Under the pieces are notes generated by a model. That model searched no databases and was not told where the DNA came from. It worked only from the letters and a program-made list of their open reading frames with translations. 64,000 nucleotides of DNA from a virus. A program made the translations under genes and the position numbers. Below, piece after piece: positions 11,595 to 20,908 of the stretch. The stretch covers positions 1-64,000 of the IMG/VR virus record IMGVR_UViG_3300035698_010970; one strand, given 5' to 3'. Position 1 is the first letter of the stretch. Every line of letters begins with the position of its first letter.

Positions 11595-11932
11595 GGGCCA
11601 ACCTTCAAACCGAGCTTCTTGGCTTCAGCAAGGAGTGCCGCCTTGCGTTTCTCTTTTTTGGCGTTTTGAGCCTTCTGCCACTTGTCGTAAGCCTTCTTTT
11701 CGGTGGCATAGCGCCAGTTGGCTTGCTCCTCAGTTTCGAGGGTCCTTGCCATCGCACAGAAGTAACCGTCATGCCCTTCGATCTCGAACTCCACAGTCGT
11801 CATGCCTTGCTCCTCCATCTGATCTGCAAGCTTGCGAAGGTCCTCCGGAGAGTACTCAAGGTACGACCCAAAGAGGGGAGTCTCGTGCCGCACGATTTGT
11901 GGCTTCTTGATTGCAAAGATGGGGCGCTTCAT
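11591..11932 (-). CDS. Hypothetical protein with basic C-terminal coiled coil
   Basis: 113 aa. The N-terminal half is beta/alpha (MKRPIFAIKKPQIVRHE; VEFEIEGHDGYFCAMART). The C-terminal third is a highly charged Lys/Ala/Glu helix, likely a coiled coil or nucleic-acid contact. No family recognised. It overlaps the chaperonin stop and the nuclease start by 4 nt each, so it is translated between them. Confidence 0.75.
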   Translation of the reverse strand: MKRPIFAIKKPQIVRHETPLFGSYLEYSPEDLRKLADQMEEQGMTTVEFEIEGHDGYFCAMARTLETEEQANWRYATEKKAYDKWQKAQNAKKEKRKAALLAEAKKLGLKVGP

Positions 11933-13530
11933 GGAGCCTTTGTGATGGAGATGGCGCAGGTCAGCAAGGTGGTAGAAACCGAAACAGCCGTTTCAATTGC
12001 CGACAGGACAACGGGGATAGGATCCAACAGCATTGGATCGTTGCGAAGATTTCGCATCTCCCCTTGTAGTACGTCAAAACCGAACATCTTGTGTTTCTTC
12101 ACAGAGAGGCTCTCAAGCTCCTGGAGGACGAGAGGAGCTTCGTACCCGGCATTGGTCACCAAGGCCACCACAGGAGCCCTGAGAGCTTCACACAAGGCTT
12201 GCTGAGCAGCTCGGAGGGTCTCATCACCCGCAGGCACAGTCCAACCTTCGATGGCTTGAGCGAGTCGCCAAGCGGTTGTGCCGGCGCCGAGGCAGACGCC
12301 TTCGTTGAGAGCAGCTCTCACGGCATGTAGGCCGTCTTCGATGCGCCCTTTGCGCTCCTTAGCCACGGCTGGGGTGACGCCTCCTACTCTGAGGACACAG
12401 AAACCATCCGTGAGCTTGGCAATGCGCTCTTGGAGCTTCTCCAGGTCGTGGTTTGAAGTTGTCCGCCCCTTCTCCTCTCGAAGCACCTTGACTCGGTTTT
12501 CGATGTTCTCGTAAGCGTCGTCAAAACAAACGAGTGTAGTCTTGTCTTGCTGGACAGAAACTTGCTGAGCTGATCCGAGCCACCTGGATTCGAAGTTCTT
12601 GATTGACATTCCAGCTTCGGGGTCGAACACCCTGGCTTGAGTGAGCGCGGCAATGTCTTCGAGGTAGACTCGCATCTTCGGAGTGATCTTGCCGGGAGCA
12701 CGGATTCCACACGAATGTAACACGTTTTGCTTCGTGTTCGTGACCATCGTTTTCAACGCGTCACCGTAAATCCCGTGGCTGACAATCAACAGGGGAAGGT
12801 TTCCTGGCACCATGGATGATGCCTCCAAGATGGGCACGATCTCCTCGAACTTAGTCAGTGTTGTGGCTACCACAGCAACGAGGCACACGTCTTTCGCCCA
12901 GGCTTCTCCCTCCGTGAAGTCGGAAGTTTCCCAGCCTTGATTCAGTTCCATGCCGTGCTTAGGCAGCACTTCGACCCCGAGACCTTTGCCATCTTCGACC
13001 ACGACCATGCCGTGTTTTCCAACTTGCAAGCAAGCATCTGCGAGAGCCTTGGCAACTTCTCGATCAGATTTGGTCGTGTGGAGAGCGATGTCTTCGAGCA
13101 TTTCCCGTTGGGTAACGTGAATCGTCGTCAACCACTGGTCTTTTCGTTCCATGTAGTGTTCGAGAATGCCTCGAACACATTGCACGAATTCTTGAGGATC
13201 GTAGCCCGCTGTCAAGTACTTGTGTCCGGACTCCAGGAGTTTGCCGGCGATGAGTGCGGTCGTTGAAGTGCCGTCTCCTGCATCTCGGCCGACTTTGAGG
13301 CAGGCATCCTGCAAAACCGAAGCACCCAACCTCTCGATAGGGTCTTGGGGGCAAACTTCCAGAGCCACGGCTACTCCGTCTCGCGTTGACAGGATTCCAG
13401 CCTGACGGTCGAGCATGACCGTGCGTCCTTGGGGGCCATAGGTTACGCGGACAGCCTTCACCAGTTGAAGGGCTCCCCGAACCATTGCTGCTCGATCCCC
13501 CGAGACTTGTACTGGTTTAGGTTTTCTCAT
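11929..13530 (-). CDS. groEL: GroEL-type (group I-like) chaperonin
   Basis: 533 aa, close to the usual 540-550. YGPQGRTVMLDR (31-42) matches the GroEL nucleotide loop. GDGTSTT (85-91) matches the ATP-binding DGTTT. IEDGLHAVRAALNEG places D399 at the position of the GroEL catalytic Asp398, so ATPase function looks intact. LQERIAKLTDGFCVLRVGG is also typical. The C-terminal GGM-repeat tail is missing. No GroES partner is seen in the window. Phage chaperonins are known from a few large phages and are thought to fold phage proteins; here it probably supports large structural or DNA-processing proteins. It overlaps both neighbours by 4 nt. Confidence 0.93.
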   Translation of the reverse strand: MRKPKPVQVSGDRAAMVRGALQLVKAVRVTYGPQGRTVMLDRQAGILSTRDGVAVALEVCPQDPIERLGASVLQDACLKVGRDAGDGTSTTALIAGKLLESGHKYLTAGYDPQEFVQCVRGILEHYMERKDQWLTTIHVTQREMLEDIALHTTKSDREVAKALADACLQVGKHGMVVVEDGKGLGVEVLPKHGMELNQGWETSDFTEGEAWAKDVCLVAVVATTLTKFEEIVPILEASSMVPGNLPLLIVSHGIYGDALKTMVTNTKQNVLHSCGIRAPGKITPKMRVYLEDIAALTQARVFDPEAGMSIKNFESRWLGSAQQVSVQQDKTTLVCFDDAYENIENRVKVLREEKGRTTSNHDLEKLQERIAKLTDGFCVLRVGGVTPAVAKERKGRIEDGLHAVRAALNEGVCLGAGTTAWRLAQAIEGWTVPAGDETLRAAQQALCEALRAPVVALVTNAGYEAPLVLQELESLSVKKHKMFGFDVLQGEMRNLRNDPMLLDPIPVVLSAIETAVSVSTTLLTCAISITKAP

Positions 13531-13826
13531 GGGATGAGAACCAACGTGGCCTTCTTATCAGAAAAACCGGAACCCGAGCCATTGCCAAAGCCAGAGCCAT
13601 AGCCGTCGCCACGGCCAGTGCCAAAACCATAGCCATTGCCATTGCCAGAGCCATTGCCAAAGCCACGGCCAGAGCCAATGCCAAGGCCACGGCCAGAGCC
13701 CTGGCCATCGCCTTCGCCACGGCCATCGCCAAAACCATAGCCATAGCCAGAGCCATAGCCACCGCCAAAGCCAATGCCAACGCCGAGTCCACGTTTCTCA
13801 ACTCGATCTGGGTCGAAGATTCTCAT
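13527..13826 (-). CDS. Gly-dipeptide-repeat protein, paralogue A
   Basis: 99 aa. I start it at the ATG 13824-13826 because its opening MRIFDPDRVEK matches the other two family members. The frame is open upstream, which makes it look like a C-terminal extension of another gene. The middle is almost pure GxGx dipeptides (Gly alternating with Tyr, Phe, Ser, Asn, Asp, Arg). The end is KKATLVLIP, again matching the paralogues. It is likely disordered or a cross-beta-like polymer, as in glycine-rich structural or phase-separating proteins. No function known. Confidence 0.7.
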   Translation of the reverse strand: MRIFDPDRVEKRGLGVGIGFGGGYGSGYGYGFGDGRGEGDGQGSGRGLGIGSGRGFGNGSGNGNGYGFGTGRGDGYGSGFGNGSGSGFSDKKATLVLIP

Positions 13827-13836
13827 AGTGTGTGAG

Positions 13837-14114
13837 CTATGCCGGAGTTTGGCCTTTGAGCAAATAGCAGGCATCCGTGTCTCCTTCGCAGGCCTTCTTC
13901 GCGAGAAATTTTTCCAGCTTGGCAACACACACTTCAGCTTCGGAAGGAGCCAACGGTTGCTGCCATCTCGGGTATTTTGCTTTTGCCGACGGACAGTATC
14001 GAGATTCTGGACAAGCTGGCTCTTCGCGTCCGTGTAGCTTGCCTCGGGATTAACTCTCTGAACGTACCGATCAATGGCGTGTGTGGTGAAGGTGAACTCC
14101 TGAACGTTGGCCAC
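13837..14114 (-). pseudogene. Small THAIDRYV-motif protein with an apparent frameshift
   Basis: It starts MANVQEFTFTTHAIDRYVQRV and reads naturally to TRDGSNRWLLPKL, a pattern I associate with small phage proteins starting TxHAxxRYxxRV. From about 13925 the open frame becomes unnatural (Arg/Ser/Lys-rich). The -1 frame instead reads VCVAKLEKFLAKKACEG and ends at a TAG (13837-13839) 10 nt before the next gene. A one-base slip near the KL codons would join them into a 92-aa protein. It could be a real mutation, a sequence error or programmed frameshifting. Without a shift, the frame runs through into paralogue A. Confidence 0.5.
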
Positions 14115-14135
14115 TATGTCCCTCTCGTTGGAAGT

Positions 14136-14327
14136 TTAGGGTACGAAAACAAGGGTGGGCTTCTCTCCCTTGGGTTTACCATGGGAGAGAACTTGGATGC
14201 TAAGAATTCGGGTATCTGGGTCTACACGAAAATCGTATTCAGAGCCCGCACCAGCCTCACCATGGCCAGAGCCAGAGCCAGAGCCACAGGTCCACTTCTC
14301 AACTCGATCTGGATCGTAGATCCTCAT
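14136..14327 (-). CDS. Gly-dipeptide-repeat protein, paralogue B (short form)
   Basis: 63 aa. It has the same opening (MRIYDPDRVEK) and ending (KPTLVFVP) as its neighbours but only a short GSGSGSGHG run. An ordinary segment, EYDFRVDPDTRILSIQVLSHG, follows. It may show the ancestral body of the family before repeat expansion, or a contracted copy. The start overlaps the stop of paralogue C by 4 nt. Confidence 0.72.
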   Translation of the reverse strand: MRIYDPDRVEKWTCGSGSGSGHGEAGAGSEYDFRVDPDTRILSIQVLSHGKPKGEKPTLVFVP

Positions 14328-14635
14328 GGGATGAACACCATGAGGGGTTTCCTCACGCCACCCACCTCGGAGTCCGAGCTACGACCTTCACCGGAACCAC
14401 CAGTGCCATAACCATAGCCAGAGCCATCGCCAAAGCCGTCTCCATAGCCAGCGCCATCGCCATGGCCTTCGCCATCGCCATAGCCATAGCCAGTTCCAAA
14501 GCCATAGCCAAAGCCTTCGCCATGACCCTCTCCAAGGCCCTTGCCCTCTCCATGGCCAGAGCCGTCGCCCGATCCAGATCCAGAACCGTAACCCAAGCTG
14601 CCCCTCCAGGCTCGGTCTTGATCCCAAACCCTCAC
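14324..14635 (-). CDS. Gly-dipeptide-repeat protein, paralogue C
   Basis: 103 aa from a GTG start that overlaps the previous stop as GTGA. The opening is MRVWDQDRA, then about 70 residues of G-[SYFHED]-G repeats (for example GYGSGSGSGDGSGHGEG), and the ending is KPLMVFIP. It carries the family ends of A and B, with strong Tyr and Asp/Glu content. The DNA under the repeats is nearly repetitive, so copy number could change by recombination or slippage. Function unknown. Confidence 0.72.
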   Translation of the reverse strand: MRVWDQDRAWRGSLGYGSGSGSGDGSGHGEGKGLGEGHGEGFGYGFGTGYGYGDGEGHGDGAGYGDGFGDGSGYGYGTGGSGEGRSSDSEVGGVRKPLMVFIP

Positions 14636-14847
14636 AAGGGACGTTCTTCCTCAAGAAACTTCGCTCCGTAGGAATCACAGTCGGCATCTGCCGGGTCTCC
14701 GAATGCTAAACACTCAAGCTCTAGCGCTCGTTCAACCATCCCGCAACGGTTGAGATAGTCCACAAACTGCTTCACGACAGCTTGCTCCTCAAGACTTGCC
14801 GGACCTCTAACCCTCTTGCGGCCTACCAAAATACTCTTGCGGCTCAT
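14632..14847 (-). CDS. Hypothetical 71-aa protein
   Basis: It starts MSRKSILVGRKRVRGPASLEEQ, with a basic N-terminus followed by helical and acidic parts (FGDPADADCDSYG). No known domain. It is coupled by 4-nt overlaps on both sides: ATGA with the 268-aa gene and GTGA with paralogue C. Confidence 0.68.
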   Translation of the reverse strand: MSRKSILVGRKRVRGPASLEEQAVVKQFVDYLNRCGMVERALELECLAFGDPADADCDSYGAKFLEEERPL

Positions 14848-15650
14848 CCCGACACGGGGTCCTTGAGGTTGATTTTCAACTCGGAAGCGGTGATGAAGAC
14901 CTCGTAGCGCTCTCCCGGCTCGAAAGGGTTGTTGGCCCGAGGAAAGAGCACACGACCGCGCTCCTTCTGCAGGTTGTACGGGTGGGCTCCGTCTTGGCTG
15001 TCGAGCGAGATCACCGCCTCATCATCCGTCACGAGCACGTACACAGGAGTGCCGGGGTGGATGGCTTGGCCGGAAGCCGCGATGAACTTGTCGAAAATCG
15101 GGCGAGTCAAGCAAAGTCGGCGATCCGTGTGGACGGTTGCTGTGACCATACTGGGCTGCGGCAGCGCCGGTTGCGCCGGTTGCGAAACTGCAGGCTTGGA
15201 GATGGCCGTGGGGTAGCCACTCTTGGGTCGGATAGGGTTGGACTGTGTGATCGCCTTGCCTCCTGGGGCAGGGATGTCGACCTCGAAGTCGTGGTTCTGG
15301 ATGTCGGCAGCGTCAGGGCCGTAAACGAAGACCGTGACTCCGGCAGGAGTGCGCCCAACACCTGATGTGGAACGTGCCATCTGAAGGCCAGGGAAGTCGT
15401 CTCCGTAGCTGTCTTTGTAGTTGACAGCCCCGTTGTAGTACAGATCCCGTACGTACTCCCCAAGAGAGAGCACCGAGAACCGCAGGTCTGTTCGATGCTT
15501 GCGAACCTCAGCAGCAATCTCTCCGCTGGAAAAGCAGAGGTTGTTGGCCGAGTAGAAGTCGATGCAGTCCTGAGCTGCATCGCGCCAGTTCTGGCTGTTC
15601 TGAATGGAGTCCTTGAGGGAAGTGCTGGTGGCTTTTGCGAGTGCGTTCAT
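14844..15650 (-). CDS. Hypothetical 268-aa protein, possible DNA-associated or regulatory protein
   Basis: Three parts are visible: an N-terminal helical domain (1-95: FSSGEIAAEVRKHRTDLRFSVLSLGEYVRDLYYNG, winged-helix-like in pattern), a Pro/Gln linker (about 145-170: PAQPALPQP), and a beta-rich C-terminal domain (RRLCLTRPIFDKF through ERYEVFITASELKINL). The last could be a swapped-hairpin or similar fold. An AGGA sequence lies about 9 nt before the ATG. The layout suggests a DNA-binding or modifying protein of the middle region; I cannot name it. Confidence 0.7.
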   Translation of the reverse strand: MNALAKATSTSLKDSIQNSQNWRDAAQDCIDFYSANNLCFSSGEIAAEVRKHRTDLRFSVLSLGEYVRDLYYNGAVNYKDSYGDDFPGLQMARSTSGVGRTPAGVTVFVYGPDAADIQNHDFEVDIPAPGGKAITQSNPIRPKSGYPTAISKPAVSQPAQPALPQPSMVTATVHTDRRLCLTRPIFDKFIAASGQAIHPGTPVYVLVTDDEAVISLDSQDGAHPYNLQKERGRVLFPRANNPFEPGERYEVFITASELKINLKDPVSG

Positions 15651-15739: not shown

Positions 15740-15979
15740 CTAATTTCCCCCAGTGGGGGTCGTCGATGGGGCCAGTGTCGCCGGCCATAGCGCCTTGCCA
15801 TGGACCGAGAATCGATCATCGGTGGTGGCACGCGTTAGGGTCTCGCGTACCTCGTCGGCTGAGAGTTTGATGCCTACGGCCGCCAGTGCGGTACGCGCCT
15901 TCTTCACATCTTTGGGAAGCCCGGCGGCGAGCGCGACCGCGACGTGGTCCAGAATTAGGCCGTATTCCTGCTTGCTCAT
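15740..15979 (-). CDS. Hypothetical 79-aa protein, first gene of block 3
   Basis: Helical start (MSKQEYGLILDHVAVALAAG), then AARTAL-type helices and DDRFSVHGKALWPATL, which looks like the end of a winged-helix domain (wing strand plus W). This hints at a small DNA-binding protein. The ATG is 6 nt after the right block of promoter-like copy 1, so the mRNA may be leaderless. A GC hairpin (15747-15759) overlaps the stop codon but lacks a T-run. Confidence 0.65.
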   Translation of the reverse strand: MSKQEYGLILDHVAVALAAGLPKDVKKARTALAAVGIKLSADEVRETLTRATTDDRFSVHGKALWPATLAPSTTPTGGN

Positions 15980-15985
15980 GCCCCC

Positions 15986-16014
15986 CTCTACGCGAACCGA
16001 GTCAAAAAATGCAC
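15986..16014 (-). promoter_or_regulatory. Promoter-like 29-bp element, copy 1
   Basis: Minus strand: left block GTGCAT, then six T, right block CGTAGAG, length 29 as in the other copies. Its right block ends 6 nt before the ATG of the 79-aa gene, placing a normal transcription start at or next to the A of the ATG. Confidence 0.55.
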
Positions 16015-16135: not shown

Positions 16136-17830
16136 TCAGCGCATCTCGCCTTCAATGATGTAGCGAATGCGTTGGTAGCTAGGATCGAAAATGATGTGCT
16201 CGTCATTGACGACGGTAGAGAAGCTCGACATGGCCGCAATCGAGTCTTTTCCATCGGGGGGAGTGCTCCACGAGCCTGTCCGTCTAGCCTTGTAGGCGTC
16301 TCCCATGATCACGTCATTGAGGAACATGAACCATCCGCGCCCACTGATGCTTCCTTGGTTTCCATAGTAAGATGCGCGATCCCCGCAATACCCGTGCGAT
16401 TTCAGGTAGTCTGAGGCAAAATAGCAGCCTCCCCCGAAGGCTGCGCCGGTAATTTGCGCCCCCGGAAGGGACCGGGGCAGGCGTAGGTTGGTCTGGAGGA
16501 TGGGAGCAATGTTGACGGCTCGTGTTCCGTGGATACCCAGAAACACATTTGCGTTTTCAGCGTAATCCGAAATATCCGAAAGATCTGCACGAGTCCGGGG
16601 CTGCAAGTTTGCAAATAGATCGAAGTCTCCCACGCGTTTCTTAGCCACCTTCTTGACAGCGTTGCGAAACTCTGTGTCACGGTCCGGCCGTTCAACAGTG
16701 AACATGTTGTGGATGATGAGCTTCTGCCCTCGCAGGTGCCCATGACGATTGTTCGTCATACCTCGATAGGTCTGTTCAACCCACTTGCCTTGCTTGCTCT
16801 TCGGGTCGAGCCAACGGACCGTTGCGTTGAGACGGGAGTCCACGTCCACACCTTGGACCTGGACCTTGTCCTCCACGTCGAAGTCCTCGTTGGCCAGAGC
16901 CGACTCAAACGTGTCGAGGTCTTGCTGGAGCTGGAGGATGTTGCCCGAAGACAGCACCATCTTGAGGGCCCGAGCTTCGGCATCTTTGCTACGACCTGGG
17001 TCGGGTCGAGGAACCAAGCTTGCGACGTAGTTGGACAGCTCCTGCAGCTTCTTGTCTTTCGTGCAGGCGACCGCCAAACGGCGGTCGTACTGGGTCTGGT
17101 CGTCGGCCACCTTCTTGGTCGTCGTCTTGCCCACGCGAACGATGTGTTGCAAAGCCGTCGGGAGCAGTGTGTCTCGAACCTCTTCGATGGCTTCTTTCGT
17201 AGGAGTGACGCCACCAGACTCCGAAACCGTTCGGCGCACGTAGCTCTGAACACCTCCAACAAGGTCCTTCACGAGGCGAACCTCTTCGGGGTGGAAGCTC
17301 TTCGTAGGGAGAGCCTTGGCTTTCTTGGCAACCTTTTTCTTGGTCACCTTCTTCGCCAGGCCAGAGCTATCCTTGATCAGGTAGGCGTCAGGAAGGCCGC
17401 TTTCCCGAGTTGCAAGTTTCTGGGCGACGTAGCCGTCTTTGCCGGATTTCCCGACCCAAATGCCGTCCTTTTGTACGAGACGTTTGACGTTCTTGGATTG
17501 GCACTGCTTCTGGAAGAAGGCGCGAGCTTCGTCCTCCGAGCTGCACTGCACGAACTGGTAGTCTTGGCCTGAGAAGGCGTCTCCAGACCAGGATTTCCCG
17601 GTCTTGGCCCGACCCCACTCCAAGTACACGAACCACCCACTGTCGTTCTTGACGACTCCTGCGTGGTAGTATTTGTTGTTGTTCGCACCGAACTGGTTGA
17701 CGCACTTCAGGTCAGCGATACCAACGTCGCTCCCAAAGTCGTCTTGGTCCTTGGCCGCACGGCCTTGGTAGGTGAAGTCCGAAGGGTTCTTCCCAGCTGG
17801 GAACTCTTTACGTCCTAGTTTAGTTGGCAT
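16136..17830 (-). CDS. WGR-domain poly(ADP-ribose) polymerase (PARP)
   Basis: 564 aa. A WGR domain (about 35-110) contains YLEWGRAKTGKS (W72, G73, R74). A Lys-rich linker follows (159-176). A PARP regulatory-like helical region (about 180-400) precedes the ADP-ribosyltransferase core (about 425-562). The catalytic H-Y-E set is present: H434 in GIHGTR, Y470 in GGGCYFASD and E544 in VNDEHIIFDPS, like the Glu of PARP1. It should use NAD+ to add ADP-ribose, possibly chains, to proteins or nucleic acids, perhaps triggered by DNA through WGR. It is the last gene of a block with an HExxH protein and a DUF3228-like protein. Its target is unknown. Confidence 0.92.
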   Translation of the reverse strand: MPTKLGRKEFPAGKNPSDFTYQGRAAKDQDDFGSDVGIADLKCVNQFGANNNKYYHAGVVKNDSGWFVYLEWGRAKTGKSWSGDAFSGQDYQFVQCSSEDEARAFFQKQCQSKNVKRLVQKDGIWVGKSGKDGYVAQKLATRESGLPDAYLIKDSSGLAKKVTKKKVAKKAKALPTKSFHPEEVRLVKDLVGGVQSYVRRTVSESGGVTPTKEAIEEVRDTLLPTALQHIVRVGKTTTKKVADDQTQYDRRLAVACTKDKKLQELSNYVASLVPRPDPGRSKDAEARALKMVLSSGNILQLQQDLDTFESALANEDFDVEDKVQVQGVDVDSRLNATVRWLDPKSKQGKWVEQTYRGMTNNRHGHLRGQKLIIHNMFTVERPDRDTEFRNAVKKVAKKRVGDFDLFANLQPRTRADLSDISDYAENANVFLGIHGTRAVNIAPILQTNLRLPRSLPGAQITGAAFGGGCYFASDYLKSHGYCGDRASYYGNQGSISGRGWFMFLNDVIMGDAYKARRTGSWSTPPDGKDSIAAMSSFSTVVNDEHIIFDPSYQRIRYIIEGEMR

Positions 17831-17841
17831 CTTGTTCGTTC

Positions 17842-18285
17842 CTAAGTGAAGCGGGCAGCGGAGTGGTGAATGAGGGTGACCGCGCTTTGAGCACGGTGGA
17901 AGGCAGCTTCAGTCTTGCTGAAGGCATGAACTTGGTCTTCGAGTTTGCTCACGTCGCACAGAAGAGCAGTGTCGAGGGTAGACATTGCGATGGCGTTGGA
18001 AACGTCGAACTTGAAAGGCATCACGCGGAAGAGGACAATTTCGGCGGCAAGAACTTTCTTTTCATCCCAGTCTCGTTGCTTACGCGTGGGCAGCTTTCGG
18101 ATAGCTTTGCTCACGAATATCTCAAGGCGCTTGACGGGGTGCCGTTTGAGGGTGACGCAGTGAAGATACTCGTGGCAGACAGCTTCTACAGCCACCTTGT
18201 CCGAGTTATCACCAAGACCGTGGAAGTCTGCAAGGCGGAGACAAGCGCCTCGAAAACCTCGACCAAGGTTGATACGTTGGATCAT
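17842..18285 (-). CDS. Small HExxH protein, putative zinc metalloprotease
   Basis: 147 aa. The ATG at 18283-18285 is chosen because it overlaps the DUF3228-like stop as ATGA; longer in-frame starts give an unlikely His/Arg-rich extension. CHEYLH (H38, E39, H42) is a HExxH zinc-metalloprotease signature within the helix VEAVCHEYLHCVTL. No obvious third ligand is certain. The rest is helical. It stands 11 nt before the PARP gene, so the two are co-expressed. A single-domain minigluzincin-like or SprT-like peptidase is possible; so is a chance motif. Confidence 0.62.
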   Translation of the reverse strand: MIQRINLGRGFRGACLRLADFHGLGDNSDKVAVEAVCHEYLHCVTLKRHPVKRLEIFVSKAIRKLPTRKQRDWDEKKVLAAEIVLFRVMPFKFDVSNAIAMSTLDTALLCDVSKLEDQVHAFSKTEAAFHRAQSAVTLIHHSAARFT

Positions 18286-18836
18286 TCCACACCTTCCACG
18301 AAAGACTTGTCTCTCCAGTAGGCGAAGGACTTGTGAAGAGCAGACACGAACTCTCCGTCGCTCATCTCGGTGGCTGTGCCTCCGCTCATCTCGAAGTGGT
18401 TGTACATCAGAGTCGAGGGATGCATGGGCATCTCTTCGTCCGTGATTCGAGCGTTGATGCTGATGATCTCCCACTCCGCATCCGAAGAGCGTTCGTTGTT
18501 CTCGTCGAGAACGTCGGCATGGTAGAGCACGATGTCCACGTGCTTGGCGGGCTGTTTCTCACCTTTGGTTTGGACGTTTTTGCGGGGCTCTTCGCCGTCT
18601 TGCCGGGCTTCGAAGGACCCTTGGAGGGTGTCGCCCTCTTTGAGGGTCACGACGCCTGAGAGGAACCCTTCCGCCGGTACAGGCACGAGGAGGACCCCTT
18701 CTCGGTAGCCAGGCTTGGCTTGGTCGAAGCAGTCTGTGGCGAGCTTCCGTACCTCTTCCCAGGAGCCTGTGTAGTGGCTGAACCGGGAGGCTGCGGTTTG
18801 TCGTTGGACAAAATGGCTGACTTCAATGTTGGGCAT
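18282..18836 (-). CDS. DUF3228-like protein
   Basis: 184 aa from the ATG at 18834-18836, preceded by AGGAAG. It contains AKPGYREGVLLVPVPAEGF, an EEPRK segment, KQPAKHVDIVLYHADVL, EWEIISINARITDEE, PMHPSTLMYNHFEMSGGTAT and YWRDKSF. These fit my memory of the DUF3228 family of bacteria and eukaryotes, whose biochemical role is unknown. It overlaps the zinc-ribbon gene by 14 nt and the HExxH gene by 4 nt. Its link with a PARP here is notable. Confidence 0.78.
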   Translation of the reverse strand: MPNIEVSHFVQRQTAASRFSHYTGSWEEVRKLATDCFDQAKPGYREGVLLVPVPAEGFLSGVVTLKEGDTLQGSFEARQDGEEPRKNVQTKGEKQPAKHVDIVLYHADVLDENNERSSDAEWEIISINARITDEEMPMHPSTLMYNHFEMSGGTATEMSDGEFVSALHKSFAYWRDKSFVEGVE

Positions 18837-19059
18837 GGTCTTCTTCCTCGTAGAGCCCGTAGTTTTCATCCCAGTCCAGCAGGGCTAACTCTGGATCAGA
18901 CCCATGGCCATGGCACTGGGGTCCGGCGTCCGGCGCTCCGTCATTGCAGTTGTCGCAGTACGCCTGGTAGTCCCAGTTTCGTTGGGGTGTGGGATTTACG
19001 GTCGGGGAAACCGTGGGCTCCCCTCCGCAAAAAGGGCATGGTTTGTGTGCTTTGCTCAT
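18823..19059 (-). CDS. Small zinc-ribbon protein, Lar-like
   Basis: 78 aa from the ATG at 19057-19059. CPFCGGEP (C8, C11) and YCDNCND form a two-knuckle zinc ribbon, followed by GPQCHGH and ALLDWDENYG. This is the layout of Lar-type restriction-alleviation-like phage proteins (CPFCGG ... C..C ... A...WN). Lar itself modulates type I restriction, but many homologues have no tested function. It is 2 nt downstream of the 124-aa gene. Confidence 0.75.
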   Translation of the reverse strand: MSKAHKPCPFCGGEPTVSPTVNPTPQRNWDYQAYCDNCNDGAPDAGPQCHGHGSDPELALLDWDENYGLYEEEDHAQH

Positions 19060-19061
19060 CG

Positions 19062-19436
19062 TTACGCCAGCCCGACTTGAAAAGCAATCGCGGGCGTGAT
19101 GTGGTGTCCGTAACCCTCGGCGATGGTATCCTTGGCTTCCCACATGGTCTCGTCAGACATCCGCTGCTCCAGCGTGGTGCGAGGAGCCGACCACCAGCAG
19201 TGGGGGTTCAGCTGGCTCGCGTCGACAACGAAAACGTCGTTCGTGTGAGCACTCACCGCTGCAACAACACACTTCACAGCGTTGTCGGCGGCTGTTGGAC
19301 TCTCGAAAGCGTGGAAATGAGTGTAAATCTCGGTCTCGGTTTGTACTACCATGAAGTACACGCAGTACGAGAAGGGTCCGTCTTCCCCGTAGCCTTCCCG
19401 AGCGTGGCTGATGACCCCGATGTCTCCCTTGTCCAT
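19062..19436 (-). CDS. Hypothetical 124-aa protein, first gene of the PARP block
   Basis: Starts MDKGDIGVISHAREGYGEDG; mixed alpha/beta with VYFMVVQTETEIYTHFHAFE and AVKCVVAAVSAHTNDVFVVD. It resembles no family I can name. The ATG follows the promoter-like copy 2 right block by 5 nt, so a leaderless mRNA is likely. It heads the operon of zinc ribbon, DUF3228-like, HExxH and PARP genes. Confidence 0.68.
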   Translation of the reverse strand: MDKGDIGVISHAREGYGEDGPFSYCVYFMVVQTETEIYTHFHAFESPTAADNAVKCVVAAVSAHTNDVFVVDASQLNPHCWWSAPRTTLEQRMSDETMWEAKDTIAEGYGHHITPAIAFQVGLA

Positions 19437-19441
19437 GCACC

Positions 19442-19470
19442 CTCTACGTGAATCGACTCAAAAAGTGAAC
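19442..19470 (-). promoter_or_regulatory. Promoter-like 29-bp element, copy 2
   Basis: Minus strand: left block GTTCAC, five T, right block CGTAGAG, length 29. The right block ends 5 nt before the ATG of the 124-aa gene. The left block overlaps the end of a possible small membrane protein gene. Confidence 0.55.
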
Positions 19471-19596: not shown

Positions 19597-20073
19597 TCAT
19601 GAGATCACCGTGATGAGGGTGAAGCCTTCCTCGACTGTGACAGGTTGAGACCGCATGTTGCTGATCATGACGCTCATGGTCGTCCATGGCACTCGACGAC
19701 ACATGTCTCTGGAAGCATTCCGGCGCCACACCTCGACCTCCGGGGTCAAGAACACCACCGCTTCAAGGGGAACCCCCGCTGCTTGAGCGAACCGGACCAA
19801 CACGGAGCGCCGGCCCATCTTGGTCAAAGTCGCATCAAAATAGATAGCGTTGTGGTCTAACGCATCGGTCTTCGCTTGCTGACGAAGCCAGGTGGTCTTC
19901 CCTGCCCCAGGAGGACCTACGAGGAGCACGAGCTTCGACACAGCGGGGTTTTCGAGGGTTTCCGCCAGGTCTGTGTATGCAGCCTCCCAAGCTGCGTCAA
20001 CACGGTCTGGGGTCCAGTAGTAGTCCCCCTCCTCGTCAAGGAGCAAGGCGTCCGGGGAGATTATGCGCGGCAT
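19597..20073 (-). CDS. P-loop kinase, polynucleotide-kinase-like (AAA_33)
   Basis: 158 aa. Walker A is GPPGAGKTT (53-61). AIYFDATLTKMGRR resembles the Asp-containing substrate strand of the 5'-polynucleotide kinase/zeta-toxin group. RRNASRDMCRRVP with EEGFTLITVI matches the lid and C-terminal strand of T4 Pnk-type kinases (RN..R...VP ... EGF). It probably phosphorylates a 5' nucleic-acid end or a small nucleotide. No phosphatase domain is attached. It overlaps the upstream 44-aa gene by 13 nt. Confidence 0.78.
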   Translation of the reverse strand: MPRIISPDALLLDEEGDYYWTPDRVDAAWEAAYTDLAETLENPAVSKLVLLVGPPGAGKTTWLRQQAKTDALDHNAIYFDATLTKMGRRSVLVRFAQAAGVPLEAVVFLTPEVEVWRRNASRDMCRRVPWTTMSVMISNMRSQPVTVEEGFTLITVIS

Positions 20074-20785: not shown

Positions 20786-20793
20786 TACAAAAA

Positions 20794-20822
20794 CTCTACG
20801 CCAACGGGATGCGAAAGTGAAC
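20794..20822 (-). promoter_or_regulatory. Promoter-like 29-bp element, copy 4
   Basis: Minus strand: left block GTTCAC, TTT, right block CGTAGAG, length 29. It lies between the late-operon terminator and the first accessory gene, as expected of a promoter restarting transcription after the terminator. Confidence 0.6.
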
Positions 20823-20908
20823 CTAGCTCAGCAATTTCAGGGTCTCAAAAAGGATAGATACGGACTGGGGGACGTACTCGGACATTGCAGTTCTCTACCC
20901 CCACCAAG

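Follow-up and report, generated by a model that had tools for sequence, protein, structure and literature searches.

The human DNA-damage enzymes PARP1, PARP2 and PARP3, which are DNA-dependent PARPs, share a domain order of WGR, helical domain (HD) and ADP-ribosyltransferase (ART) domain, together with an H-Y-E catalytic triad. Among phages, T4 Alt, ModA and ModB offer an analogy, as ADP-ribosyltransferases that modify host proteins with NAD+; they belong to a different ART clade (R-S-E) and, to our knowledge, have neither a WGR domain nor a winged-helix/AbrB partner. Phage PARPs are already known from Cellulophaga phi4:1, Aeromonas Aeh1, XacN1 (BBA65562.1) and Klebsiella FBKp34, the last annotated as WGR-PARP_reg-PARP_cat (Perina 2014, PMC4245714; Iyer 2021, PMC7824862). 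Bacterial PARPs of Herpetosiphon, C. difficile CD160 and Plesiocystis, the latter listed by Perina 2014 (PMC4245714), have a WGR-(reg)-cat architecture. Both phage and bacterial enzymes have long been listed without a partner, a regulator or a setting: the accessible parts of Perina 2014 and Iyer 2021 do not mention a conserved winged-helix neighbour of the phage PARPs, nor do those of the literature on bacterial PARPs mention a wHTH partner.

The window, a 64,000-nucleotide stretch of an IMG/VR virus record (IMGVR_UViG_3300035698_010970), encodes a 564-residue WGR-HD-ART protein of the poly(ADP-ribose) polymerase family (16136-17830, minus strand), recognised by a Pfam PARP match over the cut-off (1e-15, residues 360-539), a fold match and an alignment of 16 phage PARPs. 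Its ART catalytic domain (residues ~360-562; 16145-16753, minus strand) carries H434 in IHGTRAV, Y470 in GGCYFAS and E544 in NDEHIIF, and the triad is invariant in 16/16 aligned sequences. Pfam and the alignment place a WGR domain with an EWGR motif at residues ~30-114 (17489-17743, minus strand), in which G73 and R74 are invariant; the Pfam WGR match of 0.002 is just under the cut-off, which relatives exceed (2e-12 in L027, 2e-9). In the AlphaFold model (mean pLDDT 78.6), helices at residues ~181-313 (16892-17290, minus strand) form a regulatory-like domain that aligns with PARP1. The Pfam search did not detect PARP_reg in this protein and found it in the relative L027 (4e-13). We count this null result and the WGR score against the cassette proposed below.

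Human PARP1 bound to a DNA break (7s6h) aligns with the model over the entire WGR-HD-ART length (E 2.7e-21), although identity to PARP1, PARP2 and PARP3 is only 15-18% and no zinc fingers or BRCT domain were found in the window protein. Judging from sequence and model, three features of ARTD1-3 (an ART with H-Y-E, WGR and an autoinhibitory helical domain) are present. The known phage PARPs are likewise phage-borne with H-Y-E; the ones recovered by similarity match the window protein chiefly in the catalytic part. The bacterial PARPs so far described have a similar architecture and are mostly other sequences. The first-pass annotation had located the three catalytic residues correctly and taken the protein for a true enzyme of the chain-forming type. 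It is a real and probably active WGR-PARP; the chain-forming part of that claim goes further than the triad allows, as H-Y-E is required for chain formation yet insufficient alone.

The neighbour that is kept with PARP is the downstream gene at 14844-15650 (minus strand), not the four genes upstream. It encodes a 268-residue protein whose AlphaFold model (mean pLDDT 81) has a winged helix (residues ~20-110) and an AbrB/MraZ-like swapped-hairpin domain (~168-262). Both calls rest on this predicted model and on weak profile matches: the top PDB fold match is MraZ (probability 0.77, E 0.18), the AbrB profile reaches E 0.06, MazE from Pfam is under its cut-off in the L039 partner (6e-4), and a fold search of viral models gave weak matches only. 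Modelled in this way, the partner is probably a DNA-binding protein. Human PARP1-3 differ in this respect from the window PARP, whose conserved neighbour is this winged-helix/AbrB protein.

A profile built without LR756511, G008 or any bacterial sequence recovered a single full-length partner per genome in 19 of the 21 phage records with a window-type PARP, always downstream of PARP and on the same strand. The distance is at most 3.2 kb in 18/21 records; the two genes overlap by 4 nt in L012 and are adjacent in L039, and the G014 copy is truncated at the contig edge. No partner gene was found in L016 or L017, which, with a separation of 10.6 kb in L015, is counted against a two-gene cassette. 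The pair is retained even where the phage PARPs share as little as ~27-35% identity, and its two partner subfamilies are homologous (hhalign E 1.8e-12, 244 columns). In the phi4:1-like phages, a separate PARP clade, a winged-helix-like gene also lies directly downstream of PARP. The conserved partner yields a concrete two-protein system, with a counterpart in a cultured phage, gp031-gp030 of Cellulophaga phage phi4:1.

The same partner was present in 12/12 PARP-bearing bacterial genomes tested and adjoins PARP in nine; the genome contigs were searched with the A1 profile, whose two peptide patterns limit recall. Plesiocystis and Enhygromyxa PARPs share 53% identity with that of the window, and myxobacterial contigs hold the same PARP and partner pair without a reverse transcriptase (RT). 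In Planctomycetota, the RT of a type XIII retron, encoded beside PARP, bears the partner's winged helix as a fused domain; the locus is ordered HEAT-ARM/ncRNA/SWIM/RT/PARP/macrodomain. These loci match the PADLOC models RT_XIII (E 7e-156), HEAT-ARM_XIII (3e-160 to 1e-181) and SWIM_XIII (1e-180 to 1e-183), and a putative msr-msd-like structured RNA between HEAT-ARM and SWIM covaries (18 pairs changed on both sides versus 6.4 after shuffling, in 4 sequences). No model in PADLOC-DB was matched by the Planctomycetota PARP or macrodomain proteins. In the PARP tree, where the long branches of L037, L005, L022 and L023 call for caution, bacterial PARPs nest twice within phage PARPs, which suggests that the enzyme was exchanged between phages and hosts. 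WGR-PARPs of phages and bacteria were known before; we found no description of a winged-helix partner of PARP or of a PARP-bearing retron in the searchable literature, where absence is not proven.

We looked for a hidden type XIII retron in the phage locus and set the idea aside: it differs from the retron in having no RT nearby, no HEAT-ARM and no SWIM. The window record contains no RT, the window genes gave no retron matches, and the RTs in 3/36 PARP-phage records are never adjacent to PARP.

We consider it probable, with some reserve, that PARP and its dedicated winged-helix/AbrB-like partner form the functional unit: a cassette of two genes, carried by huge phages, for ADP-ribosylation in response to DNA ends. 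The WGR domain would bind DNA at nicks or breaks, such as those that nucleases leave in phage or host DNA, and binding would release the helical domain. Within the infected cell, the ART domain would then consume NAD+ and attach ADP-ribose to proteins or DNA ends. The partner, as a regulator, inhibitor or targeting subunit, may bind DNA, PARP or both and set the timing and place of PARP activity. Phage ADP-ribosylhydrolases, often encoded in the same region (at a distance from PARP of 3-8 kb in five records and of 19-25 kb in four), would remove the mark. DNA ligase genes near PARP in two clades also count in favour of the cassette. A macrodomain was considered as the phage eraser and dropped, being present in 6/36 records and never adjacent to PARP. 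Most likely, the cassette would let the infecting phage control its host or the defences of that host.

An alternative is that PARP acts with the genes upstream of it as one host-takeover or anti-defence operon, as the first-pass annotation proposed. PARP is the last gene of a tightly packed run, all on the minus strand: p124, a 124-residue protein (19062-19436); a 78-residue Lar-like zinc-ribbon protein (18823-19059, best start ATG 19059; phrog_599 1e-6); a DUF3228 protein (18282-18869); and a 147-residue orphan with a single HExxH motif, HEYLH (17842-18285, best start ATG 18285). The gaps and overlaps are as the annotation described, including an ATGA overlap between the HExxH and DUF3228 genes, and close spacing, start-stop overlaps and a common promoter-like element speak for an operon. 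Co-orientation carries little weight because nearly all window genes are on the minus strand. The DUF3228 assignment held up (PF11539, 6e-12, 46 bits against a cut-off of 25); Lar did not reach its thresholds (Pfam 1e-4, 22.7 bits against 28.6; TIGR03655 2e-5, 24.9 against 39.6), and by its sequence this protein is a zinc ribbon with a mere resemblance to Lar. The annotation had also suggested a partner peptidase, for which the lone motif of the HExxH orphan finds no backing in family, fold or homologue: there was no match in Pfam, PHROG, NCBIfam or PDB, and no relatives in IMG/VR, in 50,697 phage records or in other PARP phages. In L027 and L013, too, HExxH motifs occur close to PARP; the proteins that carry them are dissimilar. 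Relatives of p124 were absent from IMG/VR, and comparison of the upstream proteins with PADLOC and PDB gave no defence family and only weak DUF3228 structures.

What decides against the operon as a unit is comparison with the closest phages, whose PARPs are 70-73% identical and whose flanks are syntenic; the four upstream genes are absent there. In L008-L011 (PARP 70% identical; flanking t1 70%, p132 52%, p189 42%, GroEL 53%), HExxH, DUF3228, Lar, p124 and the kinase are all without a match, and only ~1.4 kb of unrelated DNA separates p189 from PARP. DUF3228 also turns up away from PARP in other PARP phages: in the 7 further records with a calculated distance, 21-288 kb separate the two genes. 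We reject the five-gene module because synteny and gene content show that these neighbours are not kept with PARP, the very outcome that the annotation had named as refuting it. The conserved partner lies on the opposite side of PARP, in a gene the annotation omitted, and the operon reading is very improbable. We read the four as local accessory genes, probably sharing the transcript. An NAD-dependent phage function of PARP, the remaining part of the takeover proposal, stays plausible.

Two further readings accept the enzyme and differ on its use. An NAD+-spending PARP toxin could be restrained by its AbrB/MazE-fold partner and freed when a competitor or a nuclease breaks DNA, giving a toxin-antitoxin-like or superinfection-exclusion cassette; the same logic would apply to the bacterial copies linked to retrons, where the macrodomain would be a safety eraser. 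AbrB, MazE and MraZ folds are typical of antitoxins or regulators, and this reading gains from the myxobacterial two-gene pairs without RT and from a PARP that lies within a type XIII retron locus which looks complete and includes a macrodomain. It remains doubtful: PARP precedes its partner, unlike the order in most toxin-antitoxin pairs, and a self-toxic enzyme in a lytic phage demands careful timing. Unlikelier still is a factor for phage DNA (or RNA) repair or replication, with PARP flagging nicks and gaps so that ligase, kinase and further end-healing enzymes of the phage can act on them. ATP-dependent DNA ligase genes occur near PARP in LR756511, phi4:1, L032-L035, L040 and L041, several PARP loci have genes for polynucleotide kinase, RNA ligase and Thg1 nearby, and the window encodes a PNK-like P-loop protein (19597-20073); genes of these kinds are, however, common in large phages and lie outside the conserved pair. 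Returning to the two-gene cassette, we regard it as possible, though short of probable, that it diversified in huge phages and passed twice to bacteria, and that the Planctomycetota copy became part of a type XIII retron, with the winged helix fused to the RT, PARP as NAD+-spending effector and the macrodomain removing the mark. The retron would then be an anti-phage system whose weapon is a phage enzyme. If true, the retron link would be a route for DNA-end-activated ADP-ribosylation into bacterial immunity.

A repeated element, TTTTTGASTCGNTTCNCGTAGAGG, occurs 5' of p124 (19441-19464, minus strand) and again behind PARP (15985-16008, minus strand), with a chance expectation of none. The annotated promoter in front of the run is a real repeat, which may act as a promoter. 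The second copy precedes a 79-residue ORF that is not conserved (15740-15979, minus strand). PARP and its partner may be transcribed apart because this ORF and repeat intervene in the window, which counts against the two-gene cassette. A weak third copy lies at 20792-20823. A phage GroEL-like chaperonin gene (11929-13530, minus strand; Pfam 2e-49, phrog_5725 7e-88) is 2.7 kb from PARP; as a universal PARP partner it fails, lying 139-280 kb off in G005 and G006, and it is found near PARP in several distant phages (4 phage groups).

The window encodes a 564-aa WGR-PARP (16136-17830, minus strand; Pfam PARP 1e-15, WGR 0.002) that also matches a PHROG 'polymerase' (7e-13) and, by sequence, human PARP1 (2e-7). 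The first-pass annotation held that the H-Y-E triad is kept, and the motifs bear this out: H434 lies in IHGTRAV, Y470 in GGCYFAS and E544 in NDEHIIF, and all three are unchanged across an alignment of 16 phage PARPs. The AlphaFold model made from that alignment has a mean pLDDT of 78.6; its match to 7s6h, PARP1 on a DNA break, spans 571 columns with E 2.7e-21. Because PARP3 is a mono-transferase despite retaining the triad, H-Y-E alone is no proof of chain formation.

PARP had also been grouped with p124, a Lar-like ribbon, a DUF3228 protein and an HExxH protein into a five-gene module (16136-19436). The upstream genes were described correctly, with two starts improved here (HExxH protein, ATG 18285; Lar-like ribbon, ATG 19059), and exact copies of a promoter-like repeated element at 19441-19464 and 15985-16008 bracket the p124-to-PARP segment. 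We compared PARP relatives drawn from IMG/VR, phage records and bacterial genomes. The closest phages (L008-L011) share with the window the order tail gene t1 (70% identical), p132, p189, PARP, winged-helix protein, GroEL and g6. Their p189-to-PARP interval of ~1.4 kb holds small ORFs unrelated to those of the window, with no match there to HExxH, DUF3228, Lar, p124 or the kinase-like gene. A search for relatives of the HExxH protein and p124 found none, and DUF3228, present in 9 of 36 records, lies 21-288 kb from PARP wherever the distance was worked out, the window excepted. We therefore reject the five-gene module.

Neighbour clustering singled out a 268-aa protein downstream of PARP (14844-15650, minus strand). 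Its model (mean pLDDT 81) combines a three-helix winged helix with a swapped-hairpin-like domain. Among solved structures MraZ is the top match to this domain, a weak one (prob 0.77, E 0.18); AbrB profiles also match weakly. Two subfamilies of this partner are homologous across 244 columns. Searched against whole records, the partner profile A3 picked out 19 phage records with a PARP of this type, each with a single full-length copy (the window, L008-L015, L018-L024, L027, L039 and LR756511; the copy behind L021 is truncated at the contig end). The partner is always downstream of PARP on the same strand, at a distance of at most 3.2 kb in 18 and 10.6 kb in one. The same whole-record search found no partner in L016 or L017. 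Exactly one partner was present in 12/12 PARP-bearing bacterial genomes tested, adjoining PARP in nine; in the other three, which are fragmented MAGs, it falls on a different contig from PARP. Because A3 was built partly from PARP neighbours, what counts as independent support is that genomes have just one copy each, together with LR756511, L015 and the bacteria. In the separate Cellulophaga phage phi4:1 clade, a winged-helix-like family directly downstream of PARP shows weak kinship to the first partner family (hhalign 62%). An opposite-strand ORF lies between PARP and partner, just behind PARP, in L002/L014 and L008-L011; the product in L002 is an HNH-type endonuclease, and the ORF may be a homing gene that entered the pair.

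In Planctomycetota loci L058-L064, the partner's winged helix forms the N-terminus of a reverse transcriptase encoded directly upstream of PARP (of the RT, the L062 contig carries only the end), which PADLOC classes as retron type XIII (7e-156). HEAT-ARM_XIII and SWIM_XIII genes lie upstream, and in the gap between them is a structured RNA whose long hairpin covaries: 18 pairs changed on both sides versus 6.4 in shuffles, from only four sequences. Next after PARP, L058-L061 and L065 have a gene for a macrodomain protein, giving, for example, an operon-like row at L060:14-8123 (HEAT-ARM_XIII, ncRNA-bearing gap, SWIM_XIII, wHTH-RT_XIII, WGR-PARP, macrodomain). Judged by sequence, the L058-L064 locus is a predicted type XIII retron with an ADP-ribose writer and eraser. 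Such PARPs are rare, found in 2/392 Planctomycetota and 1/284 Myxococcota genomes sampled, counts that take in genomes used as centres.

A maximum-likelihood tree of 32 PARPs nests three myxobacterial sequences within the window's phage group and nine planctomycete sequences within a second phage group, the starred branches forcing two changes. This favours two probable transfers from phage to bacterium; rooting, long branches and uneven sampling permit other histories. For phage PARPs, Perina et al. 2014 (PMC4245714) assumed the opposite direction.

The conserved active site, the architecture, the PARP-partner pair and the retron setting are established, and a mechanism may be sketched around them. 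WGR would sense DNA ends, PARP would carry out an NAD+-dependent modification, the winged-helix/AbrB partner would control PARP, and hydrolases could erase the ADP-ribose mark. Our first choice is that the phage turns PARP on its host or on host defence; less probably, PARP would belong to a toxin-antitoxin-like or superinfection cassette, or would serve in repair. Phage PARPs were already noted by Perina 2014 (PMC4245714) and Iyer 2021 (PMC7824862), PMC5966428 surveys bacterial WGR-PARPs, and GenBank annotates one phage WGR-PARP. The literature searched yielded no paper joining PARP with a retron or with the winged-helix partner; coverage is incomplete for key papers, so the novelty of both links is provisional.

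Other genes counted among PARP-bearing records provide leads. Of 36 records, 12 carry ADP-ribosylhydrolase genes. In five of them (PF03747; LR756511.1 at L003:15807-16799, L018, L019, L020, L023) the gene sits downstream of PARP, same strand, at a distance of 3-8 kb, and a further three have it 19-25 kb off, also on PARP's strand. Four phage groups, some distant, have GroEL 1-3.3 kb from PARP, and two have it far off; GroEL-like chaperonins near PARP include window 11929-13530 and those of L027, L037, L038 and L039. DNA ligase is close to PARP in LR756511 and the phi4:1 clade.

At 19597-20073 the window encodes a P-loop, polynucleotide kinase-like protein (AAA_33 6e-14), and similar kinases occur near PARP in L029, L031, L035 and L039. 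RNA ligase, Thg1-like and kinase genes are grouped no more than several kb from PARP in L029, L031, L035, L020 and L023, hinting at regions of nucleic-acid end repair. The products of three adjacent ORFs at window 13527-14635 are of low complexity and carry GxGxGx repeats of the GSGSGYGYGFGDG type, composed of 12-18 nt units.
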